A stretch of DNA of 64,000 nt from contig JAJPJV010000028.1 in the NCBI GenBank assembly GCA_021324045.1, positions 1-64,000 of the forward strand, read 5' to 3'. Of the stretch, positions 10,792 through 16,127 are shown piece after piece; positions within the stretch are counted from its first letter, which is position 1, and each line of letters begins with the position of its first letter. Both the position numbers and the translations under genes were made by a program. This stretch comes from Actinomycetota bacterium (GTDB taxonomy: Bacteria; Actinomycetota; Acidimicrobiia; Acidimicrobiales; RAAP-2). Below the pieces are notes generated by a model. The model saw nothing but the letters and a program-made list of their open reading frames with translations, had not been told where the DNA came from and ran no database searches.

Positions 10792-10938
10792 CGACGTCGA
10801 GGATAACCGGCGGCTCGGCCCAGGTCGGTGGGAGCCCCCCGCCGGAGAGGATCCGCGAATTCCGGCCTTCGACGCACTACGGTTCGGTTCGTGGCTCTTG
10901 TTTCGGCTGTGCTCGCCGCCCTTTCGAGCTCGACCAAG

Positions 10939-11325
10939 ATGGCCGAGGTCGCGGTGCTCGTCATTGTCGTGGCGCTGCTCCTGGGGTTGCTCGTCCTCTA
11001 TCGGCGCCAGAACAAGGCGCCCACGAAGTCCCGGCACAGCGCGTCGCACAGCAACGATGCTTCCTCGTACTACGGGAACCTCAACACCTTGGTCGGTGCA
11101 TCGTCGGGGACGGGGATCGGGTCTTCGTCCCTCGGGCAACCTGATCCCTTTGCGATGTTCGGCCCGCCTGCCGCCCCTCCGCAGCAGCCGCCTTCGCCAC
11201 CGGTAGCTCCGACCCCACCGCCTGGACCCCCCCCGGGATGGTTGCCCGATCCCAGTGGTGCGCCGGACACGCTCCGCTACTGGGATGGCACTCGTTGGAC
11301 TGAGCACGTCGCCCAGCGGAGCTGA
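10939..11325 (+). CDS. Membrane-anchored DUF2510 protein
   Basis: A short protein with one N-terminal membrane helix (AVLVIVVALLLGLLVLY), a Ser-rich then strongly Pro-rich middle, and a C-terminal GWLPDPSGAPDTLRYWDGTRWTEH segment. The last is the DUF2510 signature common in actinobacterial membrane proteins, of unknown role. ATG 10939 is chosen because it sits just before the helix; GTG 10891 is an in-frame alternative and no strong ribosome binding site distinguishes them. Its 3' end overlaps the 3' end of the lipoyl synthase frame by about 49 bases, tail to tail. Confidence 0.65.
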   Translation: MAEVAVLVIVVALLLGLLVLYRRQNKAPTKSRHSASHSNDASSYYGNLNTLVGASSGTGIGSSSLGQPDPFAMFGPPAAPPQQPPSPPVAPTPPPGPPPGWLPDPSGAPDTLRYWDGTRWTEHVAQRS

Positions 11326-13076
11326 CCACTCGCCTCTGCTGCCTCTCGCGCGTGGTAGCTCGAGCGCGTGAGCGGCGAGGCTTGGACGTGGGTGAACCCA
11401 AGTCGCAGGCCTTCCTCACGGAGGTCCGTGAACTCCTCTGGGCTCCACCACCGGGCAACGGGGATGTGGTCTCGGCTGGGGCGGATGTACTGACCGATCG
11501 TCGCAATGCTCACGCCGACCCCGCGCAGGTCCGCGAGCGTCCCGAGCACCTCGTCGCGCTCCTCGCCGAGCCCAACCATCAGGCCGGACTTGACGACGAG
11601 CCCGGCGTCAGCGGCGCGCGCAAGCACGGCAAGGCTTCTCGAGTACCCAGCTGAGGGACGAACCGCTCGCTGAAGGCGCGCCACCGTCTCGATGTTGTGG
11701 TTCAAGACGTCAGGACGGGCTTCGAAGATCGTTGCCAGCGTCTCGGGATCCCCTTTGCAATCAGAAACGAGGGTCTCGACGGTGGTCGAGGGGCATCGCT
11801 CGCGAATCGCCCGGATGGTCGCGGCAATCGCGCCGGCACCCCCGTCTGGGAGATCGTCTCGCGCGACGCAAGTGACCACTGCATGCGCAAGGCCCATCTG
11901 TTCGACTGCTCGGGCGACGCGTTCGGGCTCGGTGGGATCGAGGGGAAAGGGCCGTCGTGTGTCCACCTTGCAGAATCCACACGCACGAGTGCAGCGTGAG
12001 CCATTGACCATGAAGGTTGCCGTCCCGTCGTTCCAGCACTCGAAGATGTTCGGGCAACCTGCCTCCTCGCAGACCGTGACGAGGTTCAGTGCGTGCAGGG
12101 TTCCTCCGAGGTGCAGAAATTCGCCACCCATCCGTGCCGGCACCCTGAGCCAGGGGGGCTTGCGATCAGCCATCGACAGTCCCTGATCGGGATCCACCCC
12201 AGCCTGTCGCAGGCGACGCGTCAGTGGCCGGTCGTAGACAGGGCCCGGCGAACCCGGCTGACGTCCGTCTCCGCACGCGCCGCGGTCAGGGCTCGCACCG
12301 GCAGGCCCTGGATCTCGCAGTGGCTGGAGACCGGGTCCTTGGTCGTCCGATCGCGCTTCGCCTCGCACGCGCACCCCTAAGCGGAGCCGAGCGCTCGCGA
12401 CGCCTTGGCGATCGATTGGCGCATTGGCAGCTCCCCACTCCCGTGACGCTCGCTCCACGATCGCGTCCATCGCATCGCGAAGGCCGATGCCGAGCCCTTC
12501 GTTGGCCAAGGAGGTCACGGGATACTCGGTGATCCCGCAGGGCACGATGTGCCGGAACATCGACAGGTCGCAATCGATGTTCAGTGCCGCACCATGAAGC
12601 GTGCGACGTCGACGATCCGCAGTGCGGATCGTGCGCACGCCGATGGAGGCGAGCTTCCTCGGTCGCCCGTCCGAGAGGCCGACCCAGACGCCGGGGAATC
12701 CCTCGAGTCGGCCGAGGCCTCCGGCACTGCGGTCCACCCCGAGCCCCGTCAATGCATCGATCAGGACCTGCTCGAGGCGCGCCACGTGCTCGCGGCCCGA
12801 GGACGGATCGGCCGTGACCGTGACGATCGGGTAGATCACGAGCTGCCCTGGACCGTGGTAGGTGACGTCACCTCCCCGGTTCGAGCGGATCAGGGCGGCA
12901 CCAACGCGTTCGGGGTCCACCAGCACGTGAGAGGGCCGCGCTCTCACCCCGAGGGTGTAGACGTGCGGGTGCTCGAGCAGGAGCAGGTAGTCCTCCCGAC
13001 TACGGGTGGCGAGGGCGCGTTGCAGATCGAAGGCCTCTTCGTAGGGAACTCGCCCCAGCCACCGAACGCGAAGCAT
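11277..13076 (-). CDS. lipB/lipA: Octanoyltransferase (LipB) and lipoyl synthase (LipA) in one open frame
   Basis: One uninterrupted 599-codon frame encodes both lipoate-assembly enzymes. Residues 1 to about 225 are LipB: RGGDVTYHGPGQLVIYP, catalytic Lys141 in KLASIGV and Cys180 in HIVPCGITEYPVTSL; it moves octanoate from ACP to lipoyl domains. Residues 302-599 are LipA: Cys336/341/347 for the auxiliary cluster, CTRACGFC (362-369) for the radical-SAM cluster, and C-terminal RSSY. The 76-residue linker is Gly/Pro/Arg-rich with no known domain. LipA could instead start internally at ATG 12173, which has only a weak upstream CAGGGA. Whether one fused or two proteins are made is undecided. The product serves the adjacent E2. 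Confidence 0.85.
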   Translation of the reverse strand: MLRVRWLGRVPYEEAFDLQRALATRSREDYLLLLEHPHVYTLGVRARPSHVLVDPERVGAALIRSNRGGDVTYHGPGQLVIYPIVTVTADPSSGREHVARLEQVLIDALTGLGVDRSAGGLGRLEGFPGVWVGLSDGRPRKLASIGVRTIRTADRRRRTLHGAALNIDCDLSMFRHIVPCGITEYPVTSLANEGLGIGLRDAMDAIVERASREWGAANAPIDRQGVASARLRLGVRVRGEARSDDQGPGLQPLRDPGPAGASPDRGACGDGRQPGSPGPVYDRPLTRRLRQAGVDPDQGLSMADRKPPWLRVPARMGGEFLHLGGTLHALNLVTVCEEAGCPNIFECWNDGTATFMVNGSRCTRACGFCKVDTRRPFPLDPTEPERVARAVEQMGLAHAVVTCVARDDLPDGGAGAIAATIRAIRERCPSTTVETLVSDCKGDPETLATIFEARPDVLNHNIETVARLQRAVRPSAGYSRSLAVLARAADAGLVVKSGLMVGLGEERDEVLGTLADLRGVGVSIATIGQYIRPSRDHIPVARWWSPEEFTDLREEGLRLGFTHVQASPLTRSSYHAREAAEASGQLRWATCSVQRVPSQ

Positions 13077-13084
13077 TGGCGCCG

Positions 13085-14713
13085 TTAGAGCTCCGACGCC
13101 CAGTCCCTGGTCATGAGCACGTCCTTCACCCGGCGGAGGAACGAGGAGGCGTAGGCGCCATCGACCGCCCGGTGATCCCAGGCCAGGCCGATCAGCCCGA
13201 CGGAATGGATGGCGATCGATTCCGATCCGTCCGGCAGCTCGACGACCACGGGCCTTCGCTTCACGCCGTCCGTCGAGAGGATCCCCACCTGAGGTTGATT
13301 GATGATCGGCACCGTGAAGTAGGTCCCGAAAGGCCCGTCGTTGGTGATGGAGAAGGTGCCCCCGAGAACGTCGTCAGGCCGGAGCTGCTTCGTGCGAGCT
13401 CGATCGGCGAGATCACGAATTCTCCTCGCGATCCCTCGGAGCGTGATCTCTTCCGCACGATGCACGACGGGAACGATCAGCCCCTCGTGGTCCAGGTCGA
13501 CGGCGATCCCCAGGTTGATGTCCTGGTACACCACCAACGAGTCCTCGGTGACTGAGGCATTGAGGTGTGGATACTCGCGGAGGGCCTCCACCGTGGCCCT
13601 GGCGACGAAGGGCAGGTACGTGAGCGAGAAGCCCTCTTCAGCCCGAAAACGCGGTCCCCATTCTCTCCGTACGCGCTCGACGGCCTCGAAATCCGTCTCC
13701 ACCGTGACGTACGCATGTGGCGAGGTCGCCTTCGAGCGAACCATGTGCTCGGCCGTTCGCCGCCTGATGTTGGAGAGCGGGACGACCTGTGTCCTCGAAG
13801 GGTGCATCGACACGAGCGCCGCTTCGCGCCCAGCACTCGAAGCGGGTGGCGTGGCGGTCGCCGACGGCGCCGCGGCGGTGGCGGGCGCAGTCGAGGACTC
13901 GGCTTTCGACGGAACGCTCGCTGGCGCGGCGGGGGATGCAGTCGACGGTGCGGTCCTCGACGCCGCCCGTTGTGCGTCGATGAACCGGAGCACGTCTTCG
14001 CGCGTCAGGCGGCCCCCGACGCCGGTCGCTGGCACGTCGCTTGGATCGATTCCGTGCTCGTCCAGGAGTCGACGGACCACCGGGGAGAGCAGGAGATGGC
14101 CTCCCTCCGCCCCTCCACCCGGAGGGGCGGAGGGAGGGGACGCCTGGACTGAGCCCTCCGCCGAGGGGGTCGCAGCACCCCCTGCCCCAGGACTCGGACC
14201 TGAGGCCACCGATGCTGTGGGTTCGGAAGGAGCTGCGGGTTCGGACGTCGGTGTCGGCCGAGGGACCGTCGTCGGCGCAGGCGGCGCACTGATGGAGAAC
14301 CCCGGTGTCGGTGGTGGTGTCGGTGGGGATGAAGGAGCCTCGGGAGCTGCCGAGGTCCCCCCGGTCGGCGATGCCGATGGCGTCGCTGCCGCTGTCGGAG
14401 GCTGGGCCTGAGGGGGCGCAGTCGAGGGTGGAACCGTGGCTGCCGGCCCCCTGGCTGCCGGACTTTCCCCGTCAGCCACGCTCTCGGCGATCACCGCAAG
14501 GCGCGCGCCAACTTCGACCGTATCCCCTTCTTGAACGATGATCTCCTGGAGGATGCCCGAGGACGGCGAGGGGACCTCGGTGTCGACTTTGTCCGTGGAC
14601 ACCTCGAAGAGCGGTTCGTCCCGGCTCACGCGATCCCCCACTGACTTCAGCCAACGGGTGATCGTCCCTTCGACGACGGTTTCGCCAAGCTGTGGCATCG
14701 TCACGTCAGGCAA
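13085..14713 (-). CDS. sucB: 2-oxo acid dehydrogenase E2 (dihydrolipoamide acyltransferase)
   Basis: Core acyltransferase of the pyruvate (and probably 2-oxoglutarate) dehydrogenase complex, 542 residues. It has one lipoyl domain with lipoylated Lys42 in STDKVDTE. A long Ala/Pro/Ser linker follows, then a peripheral subunit-binding domain (SPVVRRLLDEHGIDPSDV), a second Ala/Pro linker, and the trimeric catalytic domain ending DHRAVDGAYASSF, with catalytic His514 and Asp518. The single lipoyl domain contrasts with the two or three of many actinobacterial E2s. The first linker's DNA contains a 17-bp perfect hairpin. It overlaps the upstream lpd gene by 8 bases and follows it in the same operon. 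Confidence 0.93.
   Translation of the reverse strand: MPDVTMPQLGETVVEGTITRWLKSVGDRVSRDEPLFEVSTDKVDTEVPSPSSGILQEIIVQEGDTVEVGARLAVIAESVADGESPAARGPAATVPPSTAPPQAQPPTAAATPSASPTGGTSAAPEAPSSPPTPPPTPGFSISAPPAPTTVPRPTPTSEPAAPSEPTASVASGPSPGAGGAATPSAEGSVQASPPSAPPGGGAEGGHLLLSPVVRRLLDEHGIDPSDVPATGVGGRLTREDVLRFIDAQRAASRTAPSTASPAAPASVPSKAESSTAPATAAAPSATATPPASSAGREAALVSMHPSRTQVVPLSNIRRRTAEHMVRSKATSPHAYVTVETDFEAVERVRREWGPRFRAEEGFSLTYLPFVARATVEALREYPHLNASVTEDSLVVYQDINLGIAVDLDHEGLIVPVVHRAEEITLRGIARRIRDLADRARTKQLRPDDVLGGTFSITNDGPFGTYFTVPIINQPQVGILSTDGVKRRPVVVELPDGSESIAIHSVGLIGLAWDHRAVDGAYASSFLRRVKDVLMTRDWASEL
14099..14138. repeat. Perfect 17-bp inverted repeat inside the E2 gene
   Basis: Positions 14100-14116 and 14121-14137 are perfect reverse complements (arm CTCCCTCCGCCCCTCC plus one flanking C-G pair) around a 4-base ACCC loop. 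On the coding strand it encodes part of the Pro/Gly-rich inter-domain linker. It is nearly all G and C and lacks a U-tract, so it is not a standard terminator. Confidence 0.85.
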
Positions 14714-16127
14714 GGTGCAGCCCCCTTCCGGTCAGAGCGAGGACTGTCTCCCCGAAGGTCTCGGACAGCGATGGATGCGGCAGGAGGAACTGTGCGGTCT
14801 CCTCCGGAGTCGCTTCCCAGTTGACAGCGAGGTAGCCCGCGCCGAGCTGCTCGGTCACCCAGGGACCCACGAGATGAACACCGAGGATCCGGCCAGGTCG
14901 ACCATCCGATGTTCGCTCCGCGACCACCTTCACCATCCCATCGATGTCGCCGAGGATCCTTGCCCGGCTGTTGCCGGCGAAGGGATCCGTCTTCGTCACG
15001 ACGTCCAGTCGGCGCTCACGCGCCTGCTGCTCGGTGAGCCCCGCGGACGCGACCTCAGGATGACAGTAGATCGCCCACGGCACCCGCTCGTAGTCGACGG
15101 GGGCGACCTGCTCGCCAAGCATCGAGCGGACCGCGACGATCGCCTCGGCGAAACCGACATGGGCGAGCTGCGGAGCTCCGGCAACGAGATCACCGACTGC
15201 CCATACGCCCTCGGCGTCCGTGCGCTGGTACTGGTCGGTCACCACGAACCCGGCGCGGTCGAGGACCACGCCAGTCCCTTCCGCGAGAAGCCCCTCGGTT
15301 CGCGGTCGTCGACCGATCGAGACCACCACGAGCTCGACATCGATCTCTTGACCACCCGCCAAACGGACCGTCGTCCCGGTCCCGTCGGGCCGCGGAACGT
15401 GATCGACGAGCGTGGCGCCGGCGATGACCTCGATGCCGCGCTTACGGAACGACCGCTCGACGACAGCAACGACATCAGCGTCGCAGTTGGCCAGGATCGA
15501 AGGAAGCGCCTCGACGAGGGTGACCCTGCAGCCGAGGTCGCAGAGCAACGAGGCGAACTCGCAACCAATGGCCCCGCCACCGATCACCGCAGCAGATGAC
15601 GGAACGTGGTCGAGATCCAAGAACTCGTCGGAGGTGACCACGAGCCTCCCGTCCACCTCGAAGCCGGGGAGCGTCCGTGGCACCGAACCGGCCGCAAGCA
15701 CGACATTGCGACCGATCAGCTCGGTTCCGGCCTCGGCCCCGTCGATGACCCGAACCCGGTGGCCAACCTCGAGAGCCCCCGTTCCGGAGACAACCCGTAC
15801 CTTTCGGCCCCGGAGGAGCCCTGAGAGACCGCGGAACAACCCGTCGACCACGCGGTTCTTCCTCGCCTGATTGATCGCGAAGTCAATCGGCGCAGCGGTG
15901 ACCGAGAGCCCGAACTCGCCTGCCCCGTGCACGGTACGGACCACGGCTGCGGCTTCGAGGAACTCCTTGGCTGGCACACAGCCACGGTGCAGGCACGTCC
16001 CACCGACCTTGTCTCGTTCGACGATCGCGACCGACAGGCCAGCGGCTGCGCCGTAGAGGGCGGTCGCGTACCCTCCAGGGCCTCCGCCGATGACGACAAC
16101 GTCGAACTCCTCCGCATCAGCCGTCAC
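14706..16127 (-). CDS. lpdA: Dihydrolipoyl dehydrogenase (E3)
   Basis: FAD-dependent E3 that reoxidises dihydrolipoamide on E2 and reduces NAD, 473 residues. It has the N-terminal FAD motif VVIGGGPGGY, the redox disulfide GGTCLHRGC (Cys45 and Cys50), the second nucleotide-binding motif AVIGGGAIGCEFASL, and the C-terminal HPSLSE carrying the catalytic His-Glu pair. It is the first gene of the lpd-E2-lipB/lipA run, coupled to E2 by an 8-base overlap. Confidence 0.95.
   Translation of the reverse strand: MTADAEEFDVVVIGGGPGGYATALYGAAAGLSVAIVERDKVGGTCLHRGCVPAKEFLEAAAVVRTVHGAGEFGLSVTAAPIDFAINQARKNRVVDGLFRGLSGLLRGRKVRVVSGTGALEVGHRVRVIDGAEAGTELIGRNVVLAAGSVPRTLPGFEVDGRLVVTSDEFLDLDHVPSSAAVIGGGAIGCEFASLLCDLGCRVTLVEALPSILANCDADVVAVVERSFRKRGIEVIAGATLVDHVPRPDGTGTTVRLAGGQEIDVELVVVSIGRRPRTEGLLAEGTGVVLDRAGFVVTDQYQRTDAEGVWAVGDLVAGAPQLAHVGFAEAIVAVRSMLGEQVAPVDYERVPWAIYCHPEVASAGLTEQQARERRLDVVTKTDPFAGNSRARILGDIDGMVKVVAERTSDGRPGRILGVHLVGPWVTEQLGAGYLAVNWEATPEETAQFLLPHPSLSETFGETVLALTGRGLHLA

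Follow-up and report, generated by a model that had tools for sequence, protein, structure and literature searches.

Predicted octanoyltransferase and lipoyl synthase domains joined in one reading frame across the class Acidimicrobiia

Introduction

As a rule, one protein transfers the octanoyl group and another inserts sulfur, and to our knowledge it is not settled whether the first enzyme passes the modified domain straight to the second. The first enzyme, octanoyltransferase or LipB, is covered by the curated NCBIfam models TIGR00214 and NF010925 and by the M. tuberculosis structure 1w66; its catalytic pair in that species is given as Cys176/Lys142 in an excerpt of PMC9307952. The second, lipoyl synthase or LipA (TIGR00510; M. 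tuberculosis structures 5exi and 5exk), has a CX4CX5C motif that an excerpt of PMC12246082 assigns to the auxiliary cluster, the same excerpt covering the serine of the RSS motif and the roles of both motifs. Joining of LipA to another enzyme is already represented in NCBIfam by LplA_LipA_fuse (NF053790; bifunctional lipoate-protein ligase/lipoyl synthase, 606 positions), while separate lipB and lipA genes lie in tandem in other Actinomycetota.

We have analyzed a stretch of 64,000 nucleotides, hereafter called the window, from an actinobacterial contig (JAJPJV010000028.1, assembly GCA_021324045.1) in which an earlier note, made from the sequence, had recognized LipB and LipA in a single frame of 599 codons.

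Results

The frame is present as that note described it, on the minus strand at window positions 11277-13076, running from an ATG start through 599 codons to a stop. The N-terminal LipB domain (12429-13076; residues 1-216) is delimited by NCBIfam and by Pfam LplA-B_cat, the C-terminal LipA domain (11322-12167; residues 304-585) by NCBIfam, Pfam and alignment, and between them lies a linker of residues about 217-303 (12168-12428), the ends of which are kept in relatives and the middle is not. A gene for a DUF2510 protein (10828-11325, plus strand) is convergent with the fusion gene and overlaps its last 49 bases.

Both halves of the protein pass curated cut-offs. The LipB half scores 166.4 bits with NF010925 (cut-off 155; residues 2-212) and 125 bits with TIGR00214 (cut-off 83.55), the models NF010921, NF010922 and NF010923 also matching, each below its own cut-off; the LipA half scores 337.6 bits with TIGR00510 (cut-off 310.25; residues 300-583). 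Pfam supports the LplA-B catalytic and radical-SAM domains, with LIAS_N slightly under its cut-off (25.7 vs 27). In alignment A2, Lys141 (codon at 12654-12656, minus strand) and Cys180 (12537-12539, minus strand) of the LipB domain are invariant in all 26 fusions, and so are the LipA residues of the CX4CX5C motif (C336, C341, C347), of the radical-SAM CX3CX2C motif (C362, C366, C369) and of the RSS motif (R571-S573). C180 and K141 are equated with the known Cys/Lys pair by the surrounding motif rather than by structural overlay, and the roles of the LipA motifs are likewise carried over by motif match. In a fold search of the PDB the best matches were the two known folds, 5exk being at the top for the LipA part. 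By family score and catalytic pair, the LipB half is a predicted octanoyltransferase; family score, cluster motifs and RSS identify the LipA half as a predicted lipoyl synthase.

AlphaFold gives a pTM of 0.87 for the window protein and of 0.89 for a sister-clade protein, values that suggest a definite mutual placement of the LipB and LipA domains. In the window protein pLDDT is mostly above 90 over LipB and mostly above 83 over about residues 381-570 of LipA, being lower on both sides of this region (68-86 in the N-terminal part of LipA, about residues 311-380). Residues 232-278 of the linker (12243-12383, minus strand) fall below 50 and are predicted to be disordered, while the conserved linker of the sister-clade protein L063 is predicted to be partly ordered.

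Directly upstream, at a distance of 8 bases and on the same strand, lies a gene for an E2 dihydrolipoamide acyltransferase with one lipoyl domain (13085-14713), preceded by one for a lipoamide dehydrogenase-like flavoprotein, Lpd (14706-16127, minus strand), both recognized by Pfam. The same order recurs across the class: E2 directly precedes the fusion at all 29 loci, 27 of which also have an Lpd-like gene ahead of E2 in the same orientation; contig ends cut the remaining two. At two loci (L165 and L178) the Lpd-like gene is more distant, only 45% and 35% identical. Since E2 adjoins the fusion gene, the probable acceptor would be made beside the enzyme, and the neighboring E2 is likely the substrate of the fusion protein. 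The genome of the window contains one further LplA-B_cat protein, of 331 aa (L045, C44:87530-88126), which is LplA-like and scores above the Pfam cut-off and far below the NCBIfam cut-offs for lipoate ligases. No second LipA was found in this genome, the other weak match being a biotin synthase.

To place the fusion among relatives, LipB was searched in 41 genomes, that of the window included, and was matched in 37; the remaining four (G002, G006, G019, G034) also lack a match to a profile of the fusion. The relatives recovered by this search include no congener of the window species. A scan of contigs with exact peptide patterns, which reaches close relatives only, retrieved 11 loci, all with the LipB-LipA fusion architecture. 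Together with 29 loci from the LipB search they form a set of 40 from other genomes, 39 of them distinct (L022 and L037 share the same ORF), and in all 40 the two domains lie in one frame with no intervening stop, which bears out the suggestion of a true fusion.

The profile was then run on 247 genomes of the class, each at least 85% complete, class membership being inferred from named loci (Acidimicrobiaceae, Acidimicrobiales, Candidatus Microthrix). It matched in 236 and was unmatched in 11. Both domains share one frame in 232 of the 236 matching genomes, nine of these (G016, G080, G269, G136, G115, G191, G173, G184, G202) only with parts of both domains, their loci being cut by contig ends; in G202 a frameshift also interrupts the fusion. 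A full-length profile row was obtained for 210 genomes, namely 150 (by subtraction), all 59 of 59 single-match genomes and G044. In another 13 (G212, G118, G137, G162, G177, G183, G140, G272, G232, G090, G130, G167, G228) two profile rows fell within one open frame, and each of the 13 was read as one ORF. Fused genes occur in eight genomes assembled as a single contig (G026, G030, G042, G053, G061, G066, G169, G189).

Two families (f36 and f41) were considered as candidates for split genes on account of '1 TGA' flags in their profile rows, and on reading showed no stop between the domains. Of 16 flagged genomes in a first listing, 15 were read and none had a stop between the domains; nine of 15 in a second listing were fused as read loci, and the last seven (G254, G141, G165, G144, G213, G168, G201) were also single-frame. 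Any other flagged row belongs to the cut loci named above. The flag is therefore taken to be a stop beyond the end of LipA.

A one-frame fusion was not demonstrated in four of the 236 matching genomes. The earlier note had held that relatives with separate lipB and lipA genes and a stop between them would speak against fusion; such relatives are found outside the class (see below), and inside it there is one clear unfused LipB, in G124 (contig C15; L107, L203), where a mid-contig LipB closes in a stop and no LipA was found in the genome, a pattern for which loss, rearrangement or missing sequence are possible explanations. A second case, G164 (L202, L084), is doubtful: it has a mid-contig LipB with a stop, a second contig bears a LipA that follows, in frame, a stretch resembling a LipB tail and linker, and the genome is recorded with 6% contamination. 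The locus of G133 opens within the linker, where its contig starts. In G220 (L100, contig C113) the frame ahead of the linker resembles what we take to be the N-terminus of PurD, perhaps by a chimeric contig or a rearrangement.

Two further observations concern the records themselves. One contig of G090 (C83, L108) carries a separate lipB and lipA pair in addition to the fusion; in the tree this pair falls among the non-fused ones, and the contig may therefore be a contaminant. The other is a record under the title Acidobacteria bacterium (L043, QEUP01000030.1), which has the acidimicrobial Lpd-E2-lipBA order with the fusion and is probably a mislabelled metagenome bin.

The linker is where chance, frame and constraint have to be weighed. 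In dinucleotide shuffles the 87-codon linker of the window stays open in 21% of cases (0.21, to be multiplied by one third for frame), so the window alone would not prove the fusion; the relatives do. Averaged over 122 distinct fused ORFs, a linker has a 0.49 chance of being open, and the weight against chance is in the number of open linkers taken together, the ORFs being related to one another. In 29 of 30 pairs of relatives (domain dS 0.1-2.3; 21 from one genus and so non-independent, the window in none) linker omega is 0.04-0.34, with domain omega at 0.04-0.19; the remaining pair (L114/L119) gives a linker value of 1.16, which rests on one synonymous change, and no gap column occurs in the linker of any of the 30 pairs. 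By these comparisons the linker behaves as coding sequence in relatives.

In the sister families its length is near constant and a common pattern can be recognized, EVQLAAFxRGxGR...FDVDRLVAxGTFSPExR...PITVRGRLPGEP, with D235, G241, F243, E262 and P263 invariant in 29 of 29 rows of alignment A3 (about residues 214-263 of L063). The linker is more variable in the order of the window, where it has an ERQDV-like start and a RRLRxAGVDP-like end (alignment A2); the latter, we assume, may be the old N-terminus of LipA (cf. mycobacterial LipA). The earlier note had thought of a frameshift or a vestigial spacer. With the relatives in one frame, low linker omega and no conserved LipA start (see below), neither a vestigial spacer nor a plain frameshift is tenable, the latter also because frame 0 aligns with relatives at both ends of the window linker.

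What is left of the frameshift proposal is a compensating pair of shifts within the linker of the window, by which residues about 236-284 would have left the ancestral frame while both ends remained in it, an event compatible with the fusion that we consider rather improbable. The second, protein-like frame noticed earlier does exist, frame +1 running for 51 codons (12376-12224) from one stop to the next. Codon usage over residues 236-277 favors this frame (0.25 to 0.27 bits per codon vs -0.18 to 0.05 for frame 0), synonymous choice by itself also leans to +1, and the window linker is longer than at all but one of the 40 other loci. Against this, the composition of residues 237-282, judged from the linkers of 21 related loci, favors frame 0 by 16.5 bits (+6.3 vs -10.2); the codon-usage and composition scores are on different scales and conflict, so that they give a lean only. 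The odd composition remarked on before is real in comparison with LipB (codon-position GC over residues 225-300 of 0.90/0.65/0.65 vs 0.73/0.50/0.80), yet high GC1 is usual in the linkers of relatives, with lower GC3 in several, which also speaks against a shift.

A quite different possibility is that one frame yields two proteins, LipA being made also or mainly by internal initiation, for instance at Met302 (codon at 12171-12173, minus strand), the MADRK start put forward in the earlier note. This ATG has a Shine-Dalgarno-like AGGGA 6 bases upstream, which makes an additional short LipA possible in the window species, and an ATG lies no more than 30 codons ahead of the LipA core in 37 of 114 distinct ORFs (8 of the 122 distinct ORFs, without the anchor motif, were set aside from this survey). 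Yet no internal LipA start is conserved among the 114: the commonest start-codon position near LipA is shared by 23, and the slot of Met302 holds any start codon in 15 and ATG in two. Separate initiation, moreover, would not preserve the frame and a stop-free linker in 232 of 236 genomes, nor would it hold linker omega low. We regard this explanation as improbable, more so than compensated shifts, and the MADRK proposal loses its ground among the relatives. Loss of a stop between neighboring genes through an assembly or sequencing artefact, conceivable for a draft of 52 contigs, is negligible given that 232 of 236 matching genomes, eight single-contig ones among them, have this architecture; presence in nearly all class genomes analyzed and in none of those analyzed from neighboring classes points to a real and old fusion.

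The earlier note had expected such a fusion to be unusual, and outside the class this holds. In a sample of 296 genomes of the phylum, 34 of the matching ones belonging to the class, no row from another class spans both domains without a stop among the matches listed, and none of 37 genomes of other classes read at sequence level has the fusion. Fourteen loci of other classes (L141-L154) all carry LipB and LipA in two ORFs; among 20 further ones, LipB lies in another ORF in 10, and the other 10 show only LipA. In at least 12 genomes of other classes, among the matches listed, lipB and lipA follow each other in the same frame and are separated by a stop in 12 of 12, which makes a tandem arrangement the probable precursor of the fusion. 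In phylogenetic trees (seven repeats dropped) 114 fused and 15 separate pairs divide exactly, with support of 0.994 for concatenated sequences, 0.975 for LipA and 0.943 for LipB; this split fits a single origin, yet it also mirrors the class boundary. A search of plasmids gave, among the 25 of 214 records listed, two in which a single place spans 80% or more of the query, and in both the match is in two pieces annotated as separate lipA and lipB.

Discussion

Our preferred reading, to which we give a probability of about 0.88 on sequence evidence, is that the gene encodes a genuine bifunctional LipB-LipA enzyme in one polypeptide, with a single early origin in Acidimicrobiia from a tandem pair and retention thereafter. 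A tandem lipB-lipA pair would have lost the intervening stop, most likely once and early in the class, and the joined gene would have been kept. The N-terminal LipB domain would transfer octanoyl onto the lipoyl domain of the neighboring E2, after which the LipA domain of the same chain would add sulfur at C6 and C8. We infer that the single polypeptide is the main product and that both domains are active; the fusion would serve equal dosage and short-range hand-over of the substrate.

Because the fusion is class-wide, the conserved part of the linker is a candidate docking element. A more speculative extension of our reading, which we put forward tentatively and consider less likely than its opposite, is a fixed two-site lipoylation machine, in which the sister-family linker (AAFxRGxGR...F(D/E)VDRLV..GTFSP....GRLPGEP, conserved in sequence and length) would hold the lipoyl domain of the co-encoded E2, once octanoylated, nearby as it moves on from LipB to LipA; in the order of the window the mid-linker would have relaxed later. 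An old, near-universal fusion offers a single protein for testing hand-over to the LipA half, fused vs split, with its cognate E2 domain, and the fusion may also act as a marker of the class.

With regard to described systems, three fusions were compared with NCBIfam and no model that they matched describes a LipB-LipA protein, and no such fusion is named in the titles and abstract openings of the literature searched, most subscription papers lying outside that search. In the PDB eight sequences were matched, each spanning only one of the two domains. Known LipB proteins share with the window protein the fold, the Cys/Lys pair and the curated score, but the LipB of the window continues in frame into the linker and LipA. 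Known LipA proteins likewise share both cluster motifs and RSS, whereas here the LipA N-terminus is joined to LipB. The nearest fused model, NF053790, similarly has an acyl-attaching enzyme N-terminal to LipA, its partner being by name the ligase LplA instead of LipB; the window protein scores 334.5 bits with it where 800 are required, over residues 304-578 only, that is the LipA part. The tandem genes of other Actinomycetota have the same order as the fusion, and the same frame in the genomes mentioned above, but retain the stop that the fusion lacks. Thus both enzymes and an LplA-LipA fusion model were already known, and what may be new, database labels aside, is the joining of LipB to LipA.
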